From NCBI GenBank assembly GCA_029264355.1, contig JARIBW010000052.1, positions 1 through 59,607 of the forward strand: a stretch of 59,607 bases of DNA, written 5' to 3'. How positions within the stretch are numbered: position 1 is the first letter of the stretch; each line of letters starts with the position of its first letter. Below are positions 994 through 59,607 of the stretch, one piece after another. The stretch is from Collinsella sp. (GTDB lineage: Bacteria; Actinomycetota; Coriobacteriia; Coriobacteriales; Coriobacteriaceae). The notes beneath the pieces are model-generated. The model had not been told where the DNA came from. It was given only the letters and a program-made list of their open reading frames with translations, and ran no database searches. A program made the position numbers and the translations under genes.

Positions 994-1749
994 ATGGGAA
1001 AGCCCGCCCCTTCTGAATACGCCATCGAAGTCAACGATGTCACCATGATCTTCAACATGGCGTCTGAACAGCTCAACAACCTCAAAGAGTATTTCATCAA
1101 GCTGATGAAGCACGAGCTGTTCTTCACCGAGTTCCGTGCCCTCAAGCACATCTCCTTCAAGGTCAAGCCCGGCGAAGTCGTGGGTCTGGTCGGCACCAAC
1201 GGTTCCGGCAAGTCCACCATGCTCAAGATCATCGCCGGCGTGTTGGAGGCCAGCGAGGGAGAATGCATCGTCCGCGGCAACATCGCCCCGCTCATCGAGC
1301 TCGGAGCGGGTTTTGACCTCGAGTTGACCGCGCGGGAGAACATCTATCTCAACGGATCGCTCCTCGGCTACACCGAGGAGTTCATCGACGCTCATTTCCA
1401 GGAGATCGTCGACTTCGCCGAGCTGCCCGACTTCGTCGACATGCCCATGAAGAACTTCTCCTCCGGCATGGTCGCGCGCATCGCGTTCGCCATTGCCACC
1501 ATCACCGAGCCCGATATCCTCATCGTGGACGAGACCCTCTCCGTCGGCGACGTGTTCTTCCAGGAAAAGTGCGAGCGGCGCATCCAGCACTTCATCGAGG
1601 ACGGCAATGTCACCGTCCTGTTCGTGAGCCACTCCATGGACCAAGTCGAGCGCATCTGCCAGCGCGCGGTCTGGATCGAGAAGGGCGACCTGCGCATGGA
1701 CGGCCCCGTCGGCGAGGTCTGCAAGGCATACCGCGCGCAGTTCGCGTAA
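994..1749 (+). CDS. ABC transporter ATP-binding protein (Wzt/TagH-like)
   Basis: This is the ATPase partner of the preceding permease, powering glycan or teichoic-acid export. The 251-residue protein has Walker A GTNGSGKST (residues 67-75), a signature region FSSGM and Walker B ILIVDE. The insertion before Walker A (FNMASEQLNNLKEYF...) is typical of the TagH/KpsT/Wzt branch. It ends soon after the nucleotide-binding domain and lacks the long carbohydrate-binding C-terminal domain of some Wzt proteins, so substrate selection probably rests with the permease. The start ATG follows AAGGATCGCCTCC. Confidence 0.88.
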   Translation: MGKPAPSEYAIEVNDVTMIFNMASEQLNNLKEYFIKLMKHELFFTEFRALKHISFKVKPGEVVGLVGTNGSGKSTMLKIIAGVLEASEGECIVRGNIAPLIELGAGFDLELTARENIYLNGSLLGYTEEFIDAHFQEIVDFAELPDFVDMPMKNFSSGMVARIAFAIATITEPDILIVDETLSVGDVFFQEKCERRIQHFIEDGNVTVLFVSHSMDQVERICQRAVWIEKGDLRMDGPVGEVCKAYRAQFA

Positions 1750-1780: not shown

Positions 1781-1913
1781 TGTACGTTTTGGGGCAAGTT
1801 TTCCATCGTTTCTCGCGCAACGCGAGCACTCGCCACAGGAAAACACCAGCTCGCGACAAAATCGCCCTACCCATAAAGGGCTCGCGACTTCAAAACCTTC
1901 CCCAAAACGTACA
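1781..1913. repeat. 133-bp terminal-inverted-repeat element, copy A
   Basis: A 22-bp terminal repeat beginning TGTACGTTTTGGGG (1781-1802) recurs inverted at 1892-1913 with two mismatches. The same ends, again spanning exactly 133 bp, occur at 58903-59035. The interior has its own small hairpin (CTCGCG-CAA-CGCGAG near 1812-1826) and is not alignable with the other copy. It lies in the gap between the ABC transporter and the Rrf2 gene and carries no ORF. It could be a miniature mobile element, a REP-like palindrome family or a bidirectional transcription or regulatory element. Confidence 0.8.
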
Positions 1914-2036: not shown

Positions 2037-2576
2037 CTACAGCTCGATACTCACCTTAATCTCCGGCACGTGCGCGAGCTCAGCGAGGGTCACACCGTCG
2101 ACGTACGCATCGATCGTCTCCTCAAGGCCCGTCCAGAACTTCACCGTGGAACACAAATCGCTCCTGCAGCAAGTACCTTCGAGTCCCTCGCACGCGACGG
2201 TCGAGCGCTCGCCCTCCGCAGCGCGCAAGATATCACCCGCGCGCACTTCAGCCGCGGGCTTGGCCAGCACATAGCCGCCGCCCTTTCCGCGCACGCTCCG
2301 CAACAGGCCGGCATTCATGAGCGGACGAACGAGCTGTTCCAGATACTTCAAGGATATCCCCTCGCGCTCCGCAACTTCGCGCAGGGAGACCTTGACCTGG
2401 GGACGCGTTGCGGCGCGAGCTTTGGCCTTGACGACATTGCCGGGAAAGTCGGCGTCAATCGAACCGCTTTCGGCCACATCGTCTGCAGCTACGCCCTCCC
2501 CCACAGGGTCGCCGCCAATGGCAGCGATGTAGATCATCAACTTGAGCGCATAGCGGCCCTTGGAGGAAATGAGCAT
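2037..2576 (-). CDS. Rrf2-family transcriptional regulator (IscR/SufR-like) with N-terminal insertion
   Basis: This is a winged-helix regulator that probably controls the divergent suf operon. The 179-residue product starts with the classic Rrf2 MLISSKGRYALKLM and has the recognition region SLREVAEREGISLKYLEQL and the wing RGKGGGYVLAKP. Cysteines at 129, 136, 137 and 142 fit a possible Fe-S cluster site. Unusually, about 40 residues (roughly 21-62, acidic and alanine-rich) separate the first helix from the helix-turn-helix, where relatives have only a few residues. The ATG is preceded by AAGGGGG. The suf operon starts 217 bp away on the other strand, the standard arrangement for a SUF repressor or sensor. 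Confidence 0.85.
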   Translation of the reverse strand: MLISSKGRYALKLMIYIAAIGGDPVGEGVAADDVAESGSIDADFPGNVVKAKARAATRPQVKVSLREVAEREGISLKYLEQLVRPLMNAGLLRSVRGKGGGYVLAKPAAEVRAGDILRAAEGERSTVACEGLEGTCCRSDLCSTVKFWTGLEETIDAYVDGVTLAELAHVPEIKVSIEL

Positions 2577-20854: not shown

Positions 20855-22441
20855 ATGCGTGAGCAAACCGACGTCCTCGTGATCGGCGGGGGCATCGCCG
20901 GCATCGTCTCCTCCATCGAAGCGGCACGGGCGGGCGCACAGGTGACCATAGCCTGCTGCGGTCCCCTCTTCGGTGGGTCGAGCTTCTACCCCGGCACCTG
21001 GGGTCTGGGGCTCATCGGACCGAACGACGATGAAGACGAGGCCGACCTCATCGCCGCCATCGAATATGTTGGTTGCGGCGTCGCCGACCCCGCCCTCGTC
21101 GAGACGTTCGTTCGCAACATCCGTCCCGCGATCCAATGGCTTGAAAACGAGCTCGCCGTTCCCCTCAAGCGTCCCGCCAGCACCGAAAGTGCACGAGAGG
21201 TCGCATTCATCCCCTGTTTCGACCATGCCAATCGCCTTTGGCGGGGCATAACCCGCGAGGCTTTCGAGCGCGTTGCCGGAGCCGAGGTCGAACGGCTCGG
21301 CATCGAGGTCCTGCAAAACTGCGAGCTCATGAGACTCGTGCGCACCGGAAACGGCGAGGGGGCGATTGCCGGGGCGATCCTGTTCGACGGGAAAGACAAG
21401 AGGTTCGTCGCCCGACCCGCGCGCACCGTCATACTCTCGACGGGCGGCACCGGCGGCCTGTTCGAGCGGAGCCTCACATCGCCTGACGTGCCGAGCTCGG
21501 GCCATGGCATCGCCCTCGACGCGGGTTGCTCGCTTGTGAACATCGAATTCATGCAGATGATGCCCGGGCTTGTCTCACCTGCCCGCGGCATCGTCTTCAA
21601 CGAGAAGACGTTCCGATACGCGGCGTTCGAAGATTTCAGCGGCATCCTGCCGACGCATCGCAACGAACTCGCGGAATTGCTCGAGATGCGTTCCGGACAC
21701 GGACCGTTCACGAGCCGTCTGGGCGATGAGACGGTCGACATGGCAATCGATGCCGCAGGTGAGGACGGGATCGCCGTCCGTTACCACTTCCCCGAGGAAG
21801 GCGCGCCGGAGTTCGTGCAAGCATTCGCACGATGGATGGAGGATGAGCTGGGAATCGCCCCCGACGACGAGCTGCGCATCGCGATGTACGCGCACGCGGC
21901 GAATGGCGGCATCATGATCGACGAGCGAGCGCGAACGGGCGTCCCGGGATTGCTCGCATGCGGCGAAGCGACCGGCGGCATGCACGGCGCCGATCGCATC
22001 GGCGGTCTTTCCAGCGCCAACGGACTCGTATTCGGCAGGATCGCCGGAAAAGAGGCGGCCGAATATGCCAGCGATGCGTCGCGAGGACGCGCAGAGGAAG
22101 GCGAGCCCCTGGATACGGCCCTCAAATGCATCCGGATGACCGAAGTCCCCATGGATGACATGGATGCGGCGCGCATAACCCGAGACATGCGCGCCACCAT
22201 GAGCGCCCACGCGATGATCTACCGGACTGAAGAGGGCCTCGCAAAGGCCCTGTGGGACATCGAGCGCCTGCAGCGCGAATCCCAGTTCCATGGCGACTGC
22301 CGTGGCTGCGTCATCCCGACAGACGCCTCACTTGCACGGGGCATCCGCATCAAATCGCAACTCAAGCTCGCTCATGCGATGTTGACCGCGATGCGACGCC
22401 GTCGTGAGAGCCTCGGATCGCACTACCGAGCCGATTCATAA
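20855..22441 (+). CDS. FAD-dependent oxidoreductase, fumarate reductase/L-aspartate oxidase-like
   Basis: This flavoprotein of 528 residues has an N-terminal dinucleotide motif VIGGGIAGIVSSIEAARAG and a C-terminal FAD-contact region GLLACGEATGGMHGADRIGG. These are characteristic of the succinate dehydrogenase/fumarate reductase/NadB superfamily. No signal peptide or FMN or cytochrome domain is present and no iron-sulfur subunit gene is adjacent, so it probably acts as a soluble enzyme. The substrate is uncertain; nadA and nadC are not nearby, which weakens an aspartate oxidase call. The ATG at 20855 suits GAGAAGG better than the ATG at 20849. Confidence 0.78.
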   Translation: MREQTDVLVIGGGIAGIVSSIEAARAGAQVTIACCGPLFGGSSFYPGTWGLGLIGPNDDEDEADLIAAIEYVGCGVADPALVETFVRNIRPAIQWLENELAVPLKRPASTESAREVAFIPCFDHANRLWRGITREAFERVAGAEVERLGIEVLQNCELMRLVRTGNGEGAIAGAILFDGKDKRFVARPARTVILSTGGTGGLFERSLTSPDVPSSGHGIALDAGCSLVNIEFMQMMPGLVSPARGIVFNEKTFRYAAFEDFSGILPTHRNELAELLEMRSGHGPFTSRLGDETVDMAIDAAGEDGIAVRYHFPEEGAPEFVQAFARWMEDELGIAPDDELRIAMYAHAANGGIMIDERARTGVPGLLACGEATGGMHGADRIGGLSSANGLVFGRIAGKEAAEYASDASRGRAEEGEPLDTALKCIRMTEVPMDDMDAARITRDMRATMSAHAMIYRTEEGLAKALWDIERLQRESQFHGDCRGCVIPTDASLARGIRIKSQLKLAHAMLTAMRRRRESLGSHYRADS

Positions 22442-22518
22442 GATGTGACAGGGACGAAAGCGGCTTCCCAACGCACCGGCTAAGTACCTGTCCGTGCTTC
22501 ACACTGTGTTGAGATATG

Positions 22519-22540
22519 AAAACAGCCCCAAACGGGGCTG
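22519..22540 (-). terminator. Terminator of the tRNA-His/tRNA-Lys transcript
   Basis: On the minus strand a 7-bp stem CAGCCCC/GGGGCTG with a 4-nt loop runs directly into TTTT, ten bases beyond the tRNA-Lys CCA end. The flavoprotein gene on the other strand ends about 80 bp away. Confidence 0.85.
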
Positions 22541-22550
22541 AACGAATCAA

Positions 22551-22627
22551 TGGTGGGCGATCAGGGATTCGAACCCTGGACCTTGGGATTAAGAGTCCCC
22601 TGCTCTAGCCAGCTGAGCTAATCGCCC
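22551..22627 (-). tRNA. tRNA-Lys (anticodon CTT)
   Basis: A full cloverleaf is visible on the minus strand. The acceptor GGGCGAT pairs with ATCGCCC, the D-arm contains AGCTCAGCTGG, the anticodon loop is CTCTTAA and the T-arm contains GGTTCGAATCC. CCA is encoded. The G27-A43 position at the top of the anticodon stem is a mismatch. It is co-transcribed downstream of tRNA-His. Confidence 0.95.
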
Positions 22628-22652
22628 CTTGCATCTGCAGTGTGAAAGGAAA

Positions 22653-22730
22653 TGGGGTGGGTAAAGGGACTCGAACCCTCGACCTACGGGACCACAACCC
22701 GTCGCTCTAGCCAACTGAGCTACACCCACC
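22653..22730 (-). tRNA. tRNA-His (anticodon GTG)
   Basis: This is a cloverleaf on the minus strand with anticodon loop TTGTGGT and T-arm GGTTCGAGTCC. An extra G at position -1 sits opposite discriminator C73, the identity element of tRNA-His. CCA is encoded. It lies 25 bp upstream of tRNA-Lys under a shared promoter. Confidence 0.96.
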
Positions 22731-49565: not shown

Positions 49566-49772
49566 ATCGGATCCCTTCCCCAGGGTCGGCGCCCCTCATT
49601 GAAGGGCACGCTCAGATGGGAGGCGATCCGACTTGTCGTCATCCGGCTGCTCGCGCCGTCCGATCTACGGCGTTCACGGCACAGCCGTCCGAGTTACGGT
49701 TACTGGTATAGCCGGGGACTTGCACCCCGATTCCCCTGGACGCCCAATGCGCCCGCGCGTCTCCGCGCCACC
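49566..49772 (-). promoter_or_regulatory. Cobalamin riboswitch
   Basis: The minus-strand leader of the giant surface gene contains the hallmark cobalamin motifs in the right order. GGGAATCGGGGTGCAAGTCC comes first (family: GGGAA...GGTGAAAATCC), then ACCAGTAACCGTAA (family: CCCGCAACTGTGA). AAGTCGGATCGCCTCCC (49618-49634) follows (family: AAGTCGGAAGACCTGCC). After it come a hairpin GCCCTTCAATGAGGGGC and GGGAAGGGA next to the ATG, so regulation is probably at translation initiation through ribosome-site occlusion. High cobalamin would repress the two DUF4430 genes. Confidence 0.85.
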
Positions 49773-57878: not shown

Positions 57879-58811
57879 CTACTTCACCAAGCGGACATCG
57901 ATCCCCTTCTCGTATTCCTCGACATGGGCGAAATCGCCCAGGCCGGCGCATTCGACCACATTGGCGCCGGTTGCCATGGAGCGTCGCAATGCCTCGTCCA
58001 CGCGGTCGCGCTCGGAGAACCAGATGGACAGGAACGCCGCGAGCGAAGAGTCGCCGGCGCACACCGTTGAGCGAATCTCGACATCGAAGGTGCGATGGGC
58101 GAACCAGATGTGCTCGCCGTTCGAGAAATACGCGCCCGACCCACCGAGGGTAAGCAGGACATTTTGCGCTCCGCGAGCATGCAGATCGGCCATGGCCGCG
58201 GCAACGGACCCATCGTCTCCACCTTGGACGTCGGTACCGAAGATGTCGCGCAGCTCATCATCGTTGGGCTTGATGAGCAGGGGCTCAAGCCCGAGCAAGT
58301 CGGCAAGCTGTGGGCTTGAAATGTCGAGCACGAACTGCGCCCCACGGGCGCGGACGCGCTCGATGACACCTCGAAGGAAGCCTTCGGAGGCGTTCGGCGG
58401 GAGCGAGCCCGAGATCGCCAGGCAATCGAGGCTCTCGAGCCCGTCGATGAGCCCGAACATGGCCCTCTCGTCCGCGTCGGTGATGGCGGCACCGGAATTC
58501 ACCATGTTGTATTCGACATCGGGACCCGCGTTCAGGAAGACGTTGACACGCGTGATGCCCTCAGTCCAGACGGGATGGACGTCGACACCGAGCCCGCGCG
58601 CGCCATCGACGATGTAGCGACCCGAAAAGCCGGCGAAAAAGCCGAGGATAGCGGTGTCCACACCGTAGTGATCGAGCGTGAAAGAAACATTCAATCCCTT
58701 GCCGTTTGGCGTGTACACGGCGTCGCGCGTTCGCGTGACCGTATTGGGCCGCAGACCGTCGCAGGAGATGTTGTAGTCGATGGCGGGATTGGGGGTGAGC
58801 GTGTAAATCAA
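57879..58811 (-). CDS. fruK: 1-phosphofructokinase (PfkB family)
   Basis: This kinase converts fructose-1-phosphate, delivered by a fructose PTS, to fructose-1,6-bisphosphate. The 310-residue protein starts IYTLTPNPAIDY and has the PfkB signatures LNVSFTLDHYG and the C-terminal catalytic loop STVCAGDSSLAAF, in which the usual GAGD is CAGD. The TTG start at 58811 is preferred because GAAAGGGA lies just upstream; an ATG exists at 58844. Upstream on the same strand is a PTS EIIA-bearing gene, which supports a fructose operon. PfkB relatives (tagatose-6-P kinase) are an alternative. Confidence 0.85.
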   Translation of the reverse strand: MIYTLTPNPAIDYNISCDGLRPNTVTRTRDAVYTPNGKGLNVSFTLDHYGVDTAILGFFAGFSGRYIVDGARGLGVDVHPVWTEGITRVNVFLNAGPDVEYNMVNSGAAITDADERAMFGLIDGLESLDCLAISGSLPPNASEGFLRGVIERVRARGAQFVLDISSPQLADLLGLEPLLIKPNDDELRDIFGTDVQGGDDGSVAAAMADLHARGAQNVLLTLGGSGAYFSNGEHIWFAHRTFDVEIRSTVCAGDSSLAAFLSIWFSERDRVDEALRRSMATGANVVECAGLGDFAHVEEYEKGIDVRLVK

Positions 58812-58860
58812 GGTGTTCCCTTTCTCGGTGCTGCTGCGAATCATTAAACGAAGGGGTCAT

Positions 58861-58902: not shown

Positions 58903-59035
58903 TGTACGTTTTGGGGCAGGTTTTGAGGCATCTGGAGGATATGCGCCGCTCGAACGCCAACGTTTCCGCAGGAAAGACTTTTCAAGGATGGGCTCCCCGA
59001 AGGAAATCCCTCCAAAACCTGCCCCAAAACGTACA
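58903..59035. repeat. 133-bp terminal-inverted-repeat element, copy B
   Basis: The 22-bp ends starting TGTACGTTTTGGGG (58903-58924 and 59014-59035) are perfect inverted repeats. The total length, 133 bp, equals copy A at 1781-1913. The interior is different from copy A. It is wedged between a terminator hairpin after the PTS gene and the fruK leader hairpin, with no ORF inside. Confidence 0.85.
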
Positions 59036-59084: not shown

Positions 59085-59607
59085 TTACGCGAGGCGCTCG
59101 TTGATGAGCCCGGCAATCGCGGCGGGATCGTCAGTCGACTTGACTGCGGAGCGGAAGCCCTCGTCGGTCAAAGCCGTAGCCACCTTGGAAAGGATCTGCA
59201 GGTGAGAAGTGCCGGCCTCGGACTCGGGAACGAGCAGGGCGATGGCGCAGGTGACAGGGGACTCGTCCATGGTCTCCCAGGAGGCTATCCCCTCAGAACT
59301 CTTGAGCACCATGACCTGAGCGGTCTTCACCGTATCGGACTTGGCATGCGGGATGGCGAATCCCTCGACCATGCCCGTAGTACCCTCGGCTTCGCGCTTG
59401 AGGAAGGCGGCGTACAGGGCGGCAGAATCCTCGGCGACACCAGCCTCGACAGCACGCTCGGCGATGAGGGACAAGGCGACATCGCGATTCTCGACCGCCT
59501 GGACGCAGAACACATTAGAAGCCTTGACGAAACCCTCGCCGGAAACTCGCTCGGCATCGATGGCAGCCCCTGACGCGGCAACTTCGGTCTCGGAGGCCTT
59601 CTGGGCA
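59085..59607 (-). CDS. PTS fructose/mannitol-type EIIA domain, C-terminal part of a larger protein (partial)
   Basis: Only the 3' end is in the window; the frame stays open to the edge. The visible 173 residues comprise an Ala/Glu/Ser-rich linker (about 1-30) and a PTS_EIIA_2 domain with the phosphorylated histidine in GFAIPHAKS. The linker suggests fusion to upstream PTS domains (FruA-type EIIBCA). It lies upstream of fruK on the same strand, consistent with fructose uptake. Residues before the edge are unknown. Confidence 0.85.
   Translation of the reverse strand, partial: AQKASETEVAASGAAIDAERVSGEGFVKASNVFCVQAVENRDVALSLIAERAVEAGVAEDSAALYAAFLKREAEGTTGMVEGFAIPHAKSDTVKTAQVMVLKSSEGIASWETMDESPVTCAIALLVPESEAGTSHLQILSKVATALTDEGFRSAVKSTDDPAAIAGLINERLA

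Follow-up and report, generated by a model that had tools for sequence, protein, structure and literature searches.

Paired inverted repeats in the window and across the genome

The window, a stretch of 59,607 nucleotides that corresponds to contig C34 of the Collinsella sp. genome studied here (G000), encodes two elements of 133 bp each. Copy A (1781-1913) lies between a gene for what we take to be a TagH-like ABC transporter ATPase (994..1749, +) and a convergent gene (2037..2576, -) presumably encoding an RrF2-type regulator. Copy B (58903-59035) has downstream of it a gene at 57879..58844 (-) and upstream of it a gene at 59085..59606 (-), which we assume to encode a 1-phosphofructokinase-like protein and a PTS EIIA-like protein, respectively. 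Both copies carry TGTACGTTTTGGGG at both ends in inverted orientation. These arms are located at 1781..1802 (+) and 1892..1913 (-) in copy A, where 20 of 22 positions pair and the remainder are mismatched, and at 58903..58924 (+) and 59014..59035 (-) in copy B, where pairing is perfect over 24 bp. A preliminary description of this DNA had reported same-length pairs with inverted ends 57 kb apart, and these are real, given four end matches within the window compared with 0.17 expected from shuffles.

We searched the whole G000 genome (1.56 Mb, 53 contigs) for the exact 14-base end. The 18 matches form nine inverted pairs and nothing else, and the backward control gave none. Seven pairs, including copies A and B, face inward and span 132-133 bp. 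The other two face outward, with a gap of 36 bp between the 14-base ends and an outer span of 64 bp, or 80 bp if whole arms are included. With up to two mismatches allowed there were nine extra matches, versus 16 in the backward control, and solitary ends are therefore at chance level in G000, with no excess. The genome-wide check of spacing and pairing that the preliminary description had called for thus bears out its observation, as every end is paired and the inward span is constant to within a base pair. The full arm site is longer than the 22-bp end, about AAGTGTACGTTTTGGGGMAGGTTTTG, and the left arm of copy A extends outwards by AA[G/C] to about position 1778.

A core at the centre of the element

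A third fixed part occurs at the dyad, a core of the form C-(C/A)-(C/G)-C-A-G, and copies can be oriented by this middle. In copy A the core is CACCAGC (1844..1850, +; CACCAGG in Collinsella intestinalis), 63 bp from each outer end, so that the interior (1803..1891) comprises two 41-bp spacers of free sequence flanking the core. In copy B it is CCGCAGG (58966..58972, +), of the GTTT form and identical in C. intestinalis; in two other C. intestinalis copies the first base of the core is G. All 15 inward copies (seven in G000 and eight in the C. intestinalis genome, G015) have 63 bp between the core and the right outer end, and 62 or 63 bp between the core and the left one. In all four outward copies the core is 28 and 29 bp from the ends of the 14-mers. 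The element thus consists of two mirrored, inverted arms of ~26 bp and a core of 7-16 bp at the dyad, placed at base-pair-exact distances with free spacers between them. The earlier statement that the interiors do not align holds for the spacers, which are nearly unrelated between different copies in one genome (30% identity in register versus 25% for shuffles), but it overlooked the fixed core, as well as the outward pairs and the genus-wide class described below.

Conserved and drifting parts between two species

Among 43 Collinsella genomes, the 14-base end is found only in G000 and C. intestinalis, and a relaxed paired pattern searched against 84,980 named species matched C. intestinalis alone. 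All nine G000 elements have orthologues at the same places in C. intestinalis. The latter has a tenth element, e10, whose place in the window is 22436..22550, and in G000 this element is absent or a decayed trace. A tRNA-Lys gene that lies beside e10 in C. intestinalis is a tandem duplicate there (L046:1302-1578) and single in the window (22551-22729).

Across the nine orthologous pairs, the 22-bp arms are identical at 370 of 396 positions (93%) and the 7-base cores at 57 of 63 (90%), compared with 390 of 628 (62%, ungapped) for the spacers. The pairs e1 and e8 retain arms and core with spacers that are close to chance level; the C. intestinalis e8 spans 132 bp. At position 15 of the arm, 16 of the 18 G000 arms have C and 17 of the 20 arms extracted from C. 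intestinalis have A (the extraction behind this count got one arm wrong). This contrast recurs across copies, and the arms have therefore shifted together, in a concerted change. Fixed spacing, with ends and core retained in place between two species as the spacers drift, supports the preliminary suggestion of selection on geometry.

A genus-wide class of sites

The core RCAAAACCSCAGGTCG (at most one mismatch) is present in all 43 Collinsella genomes, with 245 matches versus 13 in the backward control by our own sum. We examined 86 of these matches with their flanks, picked for spread over genomes and with loci L216-L221 left out. Inverted arms (score of at least 12) surround 45 of the 86, compared with 1 of 86 for shuffled flanks, and 41 are without strong arms. 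Because core matches were sampled by pattern, the core consensus outside the TGTACG arm family is partly imposed. The arms belong to many lineage-specific families, several per genome; C. intestinalis, for example, has a second family, TTGAGGTTTTTCGTA. Thus, the arms vary by lineage and the core stays.

A genome that is without TGTACG arms, G017, was scanned over 400 kb for repeated inverted words, and this recovered inverted pairs that have a different arm, GAATTCGGTTCAATT, around the same core. A core-centred scan of G017 added a third arm type, with spacers of 71/71; three pairs scored 15-17, compared with 10 for the best reversed-core control, and the top score of 22 was set aside as an asymmetric match with a weak core. 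Among the 45 elements, the right spacer exceeds the left by 0-3 bp in 24 and by 11-12 bp in 20, and falls short of it by 20 bp in one, although these are not independent counts because many elements are orthologues or members of one family. The two spacer classes have means 10.5 bp apart, which corresponds to a single B-DNA turn. A literature search with the exact arm motif returned no paper, and one with the exact core motif returned unrelated papers only. The 15-mer arm of another family (family d) gave 57 matches, judged to be about chance level, and was rejected.

Comparison with mobile and extragenic repeats

The elements might represent several MITE-like, non-autonomous families that share a central core, the arms being terminal inverted repeats and each family having its own transposase. 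They resemble MITEs in their terminal inverted repeats starting with TGT, in a length of 133 bp and in containing no transposase. The TGT...ACA ends, the several arm families per genome with lineage-specific copies, and a multi-copy family with conserved interior in another genome, G038, are also in line with such an origin. We nevertheless consider it distinctly unlikely. By eye, the flanks of the seven inward copies contain no direct repeat, and mostly the inverted AAG/CTT continues, so the target-site duplications proposed as a check in the preliminary description are not apparent. In addition, the interiors of paralogous copies are unrelated despite identical arms and fixed length, and all nine elements are conserved in place, with no movement since the species split. 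MITE families would also not be expected to include an outward arrangement with the same core, and they offer no reason for the exact centring or the helical classes.

REPIN and BIME sequences are extragenic, occur as inverted pairs, are lineage-specific in sequence and persist vertically. The Collinsella elements share these traits, but differ in that their arms are not themselves palindromic, their spacers are unconserved and they have a core at the centre. A RAYT partner (Y1 transposase, PF01797) was considered and rejected, as none is found in C. intestinalis and one in G000.

Genomic neighbourhood

All nine G000 elements are intergenic: by our own reading, three lie between convergent genes, the rest between genes that run in the same direction and none between divergent genes. 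No integrase gene was seen adjoining any of the nine; the flanking genes look like housekeeping genes, and no function common to them was found. With respect to the nearest gene, our own reading gives five cores in each orientation. Eight of ten elements fall on one replichore, a bias that by our own estimate is not significant. Two RNA features were noted in the course of this survey, an AdoCbl-II riboswitch in the window (49678-49753, minus strand) and, between element e5 and ileS, a T-box-like leader (L009:1221-1380) that scores below the Rfam cut-off (E 1e-7).

One alternative is that the arms are operators of a looping transcriptional regulator and that the core binds an architectural protein, in which case phages would merely reuse the core. 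GalR-HU provides the comparison for looping of an operator pair with an architectural protein. The spacing of the arms, near 110 bp centre to centre, the helical spacer classes and the concerted arm change are all consistent with an operator pair. However, positions downstream of stop codons or between convergent genes are as common among the elements as positions near gene starts, and the several arm families per genome, as in G017 and C. intestinalis, would need several regulators. The lack of common neighbours likewise argues against a simple regulon, and we regard the looping regulator as unlikely.

A probable double-stranded DNA site

Across the dyad, the two spacers show no complementarity (24.8% at register 0), and RNA folding compared with spacer shuffles yielded no consistent signal beyond the arms (z from -3.4 to +0.9). 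In G000, departures from the arm consensus are confined to one arm in four cases and affect both arms in none; in C. intestinalis the numbers are 12 and two. For the d/e arms, a mixed family in other species, the picture is less clear, with 35 single versus 27 double changes. Because arm changes are mostly one-sided and the spacers are unpaired, we interpret the element as a double-stranded DNA site and not a hairpin RNA. Taken together with the balanced core orientation, these features fit a double-stranded site that is read equally from either strand. They also speak against the paired transcript end that the preliminary description had suggested; its other suggestion, a protein binding both ends, is the kind of explanation that we favour. 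No Rfam family was identified at the elements at gathering or lax thresholds, and miR-430-like matches are long hairpins below the cut-off.

A structured non-coding RNA, such as an antitoxin RNA of AbiF (Abi_2) type that has spread as orphans, would be another explanation. AbiF systems have an RNA antitoxin upstream (PMC12373285). The core occurs in sense at a fixed upstream place in 4 of 30 Abi_2 loci, and in one Abi_2 subfamily the region upstream of the gene has the core with inverted arms. However, the Abi_2 gene is absent from G000 and C. intestinalis, where elements are present, and the abiF covariance model of Rfam (RF03085) has no match. Compensatory arm changes number zero in G000 and account for two of the 14 changed pairs in C. 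intestinalis, and the unpaired spacers and random core orientation are equally at odds with an RNA. We therefore judge this explanation to be quite improbable. In the subfamily itself (L454, L455, L458 and L459, from G026, G038, G013 and G004, respectively), the core lies ~140 bp upstream of the Abi_2 gene, between inverted arms GCAAGCCGCC/GGTGGCTTGC. Core and arms are near-identical across species in this subfamily, which is therefore recently mobile.

The core in phage genomes

The exact core occurs in 88 stretches of IMG/VR, many of them from low-GC, marine-looking phages, and many of these matches are probably due to chance. Gene neighbours were inspected for 25 of the 88. In L320, L329, L360, L319 and L359, an identical core lies 12-107 bp past the 3' end of an integrase gene; these genes were assigned to a PHROGs integrase family (E 1e-21 or better), with weak or no Pfam matches. 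The core of L335 adjoins both an integrase gene and a tRNA end.

We identified 11 loci related to the integrase of L329 (contig 3300032038_005721), L329 included. CGCAGGT is found 25-52 bp past the integrase gene in all 11, compared with a background of 17 in 366 windows. Ten also have one GGGACG at +6 to +22, the other (L471) having a reverse copy at +30, and all 11 have two GGGACG copies at +154 to +203 that are spaced exactly 11 bp. On the basis of sequence, a CGCAGGT core with GGGACG repeats past an integrase gene is the anatomy of a putative attP. The core of the Collinsella elements thus also lies, in gut phages, within an attP-like stretch next to the integrase gene. Two forms, AAAACC and GTTT/TTTCC, are seen among the phage cores, and both also occur in G000. 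The phage arm GGGACGC is found in only 1 of the 45 host elements. Searches of viral, phage and plasmid sequences with the TGTACG arm gave nothing convincing, and the arms of families c and b have one and three matches in viral contigs, respectively, with no core nearby.

These observations raise the possibility that the elements are relics of excised or trimmed integrative elements, with different integrases that acted on one common core. Such an origin would account for a constant core with varying arms and for the match to phage attP. We consider it highly improbable, as the spacers drift but arms and core stay conserved at their positions, which argues against mere relics. Moreover, integration leaves attL and attR sites with one arm side each, not a single core with arms on both sides.

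Relationship to attachment sites

We tentatively propose, as a reading that is possible and still open to doubt, that copies A and B belong to a genus-wide class of double-stranded, attachment-site-like nucleoprotein sites with an arm-core-arm organization. The 133-bp element probably serves a recombinase-like protein complex as a place to land or bind, rather than being a transposon in decay. A protein multimer would occupy both arms and join them to a core-bound factor along a single face of the helix. Arms and core may be used much as a heterobivalent tyrosine integrase uses arm sites plus a core site, and temperate phages may rely on this core for their own attachment.

Similar to a lambda-type attP, the host elements have a core between putative arm-type sites at fixed, helically phased distances, and the core is also found past phage integrase genes. 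They differ from such an attP in that the chromosomal Collinsella copies are dispersed and conserved in place, have symmetric, inverted arms, and lack an adjoining integrase gene, which is seen in phages only. The crossover site of a tyrosine recombinase should have a second, inverted half-site across an overlap of 6-8 bp. Inverted core half-sites are visible by eye in GGTAG-type cores, although not in the consensus of the 45 elements, and a second half-site is not conserved at the core of the 133-bp copies. Given these two differences, the missing integrase gene and the second half-site, we do not classify the host elements as attP, and both count against the attachment-site reading. So do the rarity of phage arms among the host elements and the core matches without strong arms, and also the persistence of the elements, since mere records of past integration should decay.

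A more specific version, which we consider rather unlikely as it stands, is a dispersed network of solo attachment-like sites, in which inverted arms surround one invariant core of integrase type. Selection would maintain this network, and a recombinase-like complex resident in Collinsella would act on it. Its arms would turn over by lineage, and phages of gut bacteria would keep the core as their attachment core. The elements are a clean natural case of DNA geometry that is conserved without sequence, with three short parts at base-pair-exact, helically quantised distances and a core shared across the genus. They hint at an undescribed system for DNA bridging or recombination in Collinsella, and offer a directly testable approach to the way in which gut actinobacterial phages may select their place of integration.

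Other repeats in the genus

The G017 stretch of 400 kb contains a separate paired repeat of ~60 bp in about five places (e.g. C3:24348-24406), composed of AACAGTCCTGCGCAAGACGGAG followed by the reverse complement of CGCGCAGTTCCGCACGCAAAG. At one C. intestinalis locus (L427:7140-7300; C3:1183214), the core occurs beside direct repeats, GGCAACTA, and ~84 bp upstream of a Schlafen AlbA_2 / HATPase gene; an association of the core with AlbA_2 was dropped, as this is a single locus.

G038 has at least 20 copies of a different element (loci L130-L149, e.g. L131:217-496), with a core, GGTACCTTATGAATAG, that among the 43 genomes occurs in numbers only there. Tandem arms of ~20 bp, TCAAATAATCGCTTAGTGC, are spaced 29-34 bp apart on both sides of this core. 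The element is asymmetric, with up to four and three arms; the spacing of the inner arms is mostly 137-138 bp and the interior is partly conserved. It looks like a multi-arm, attachment-type repeat.
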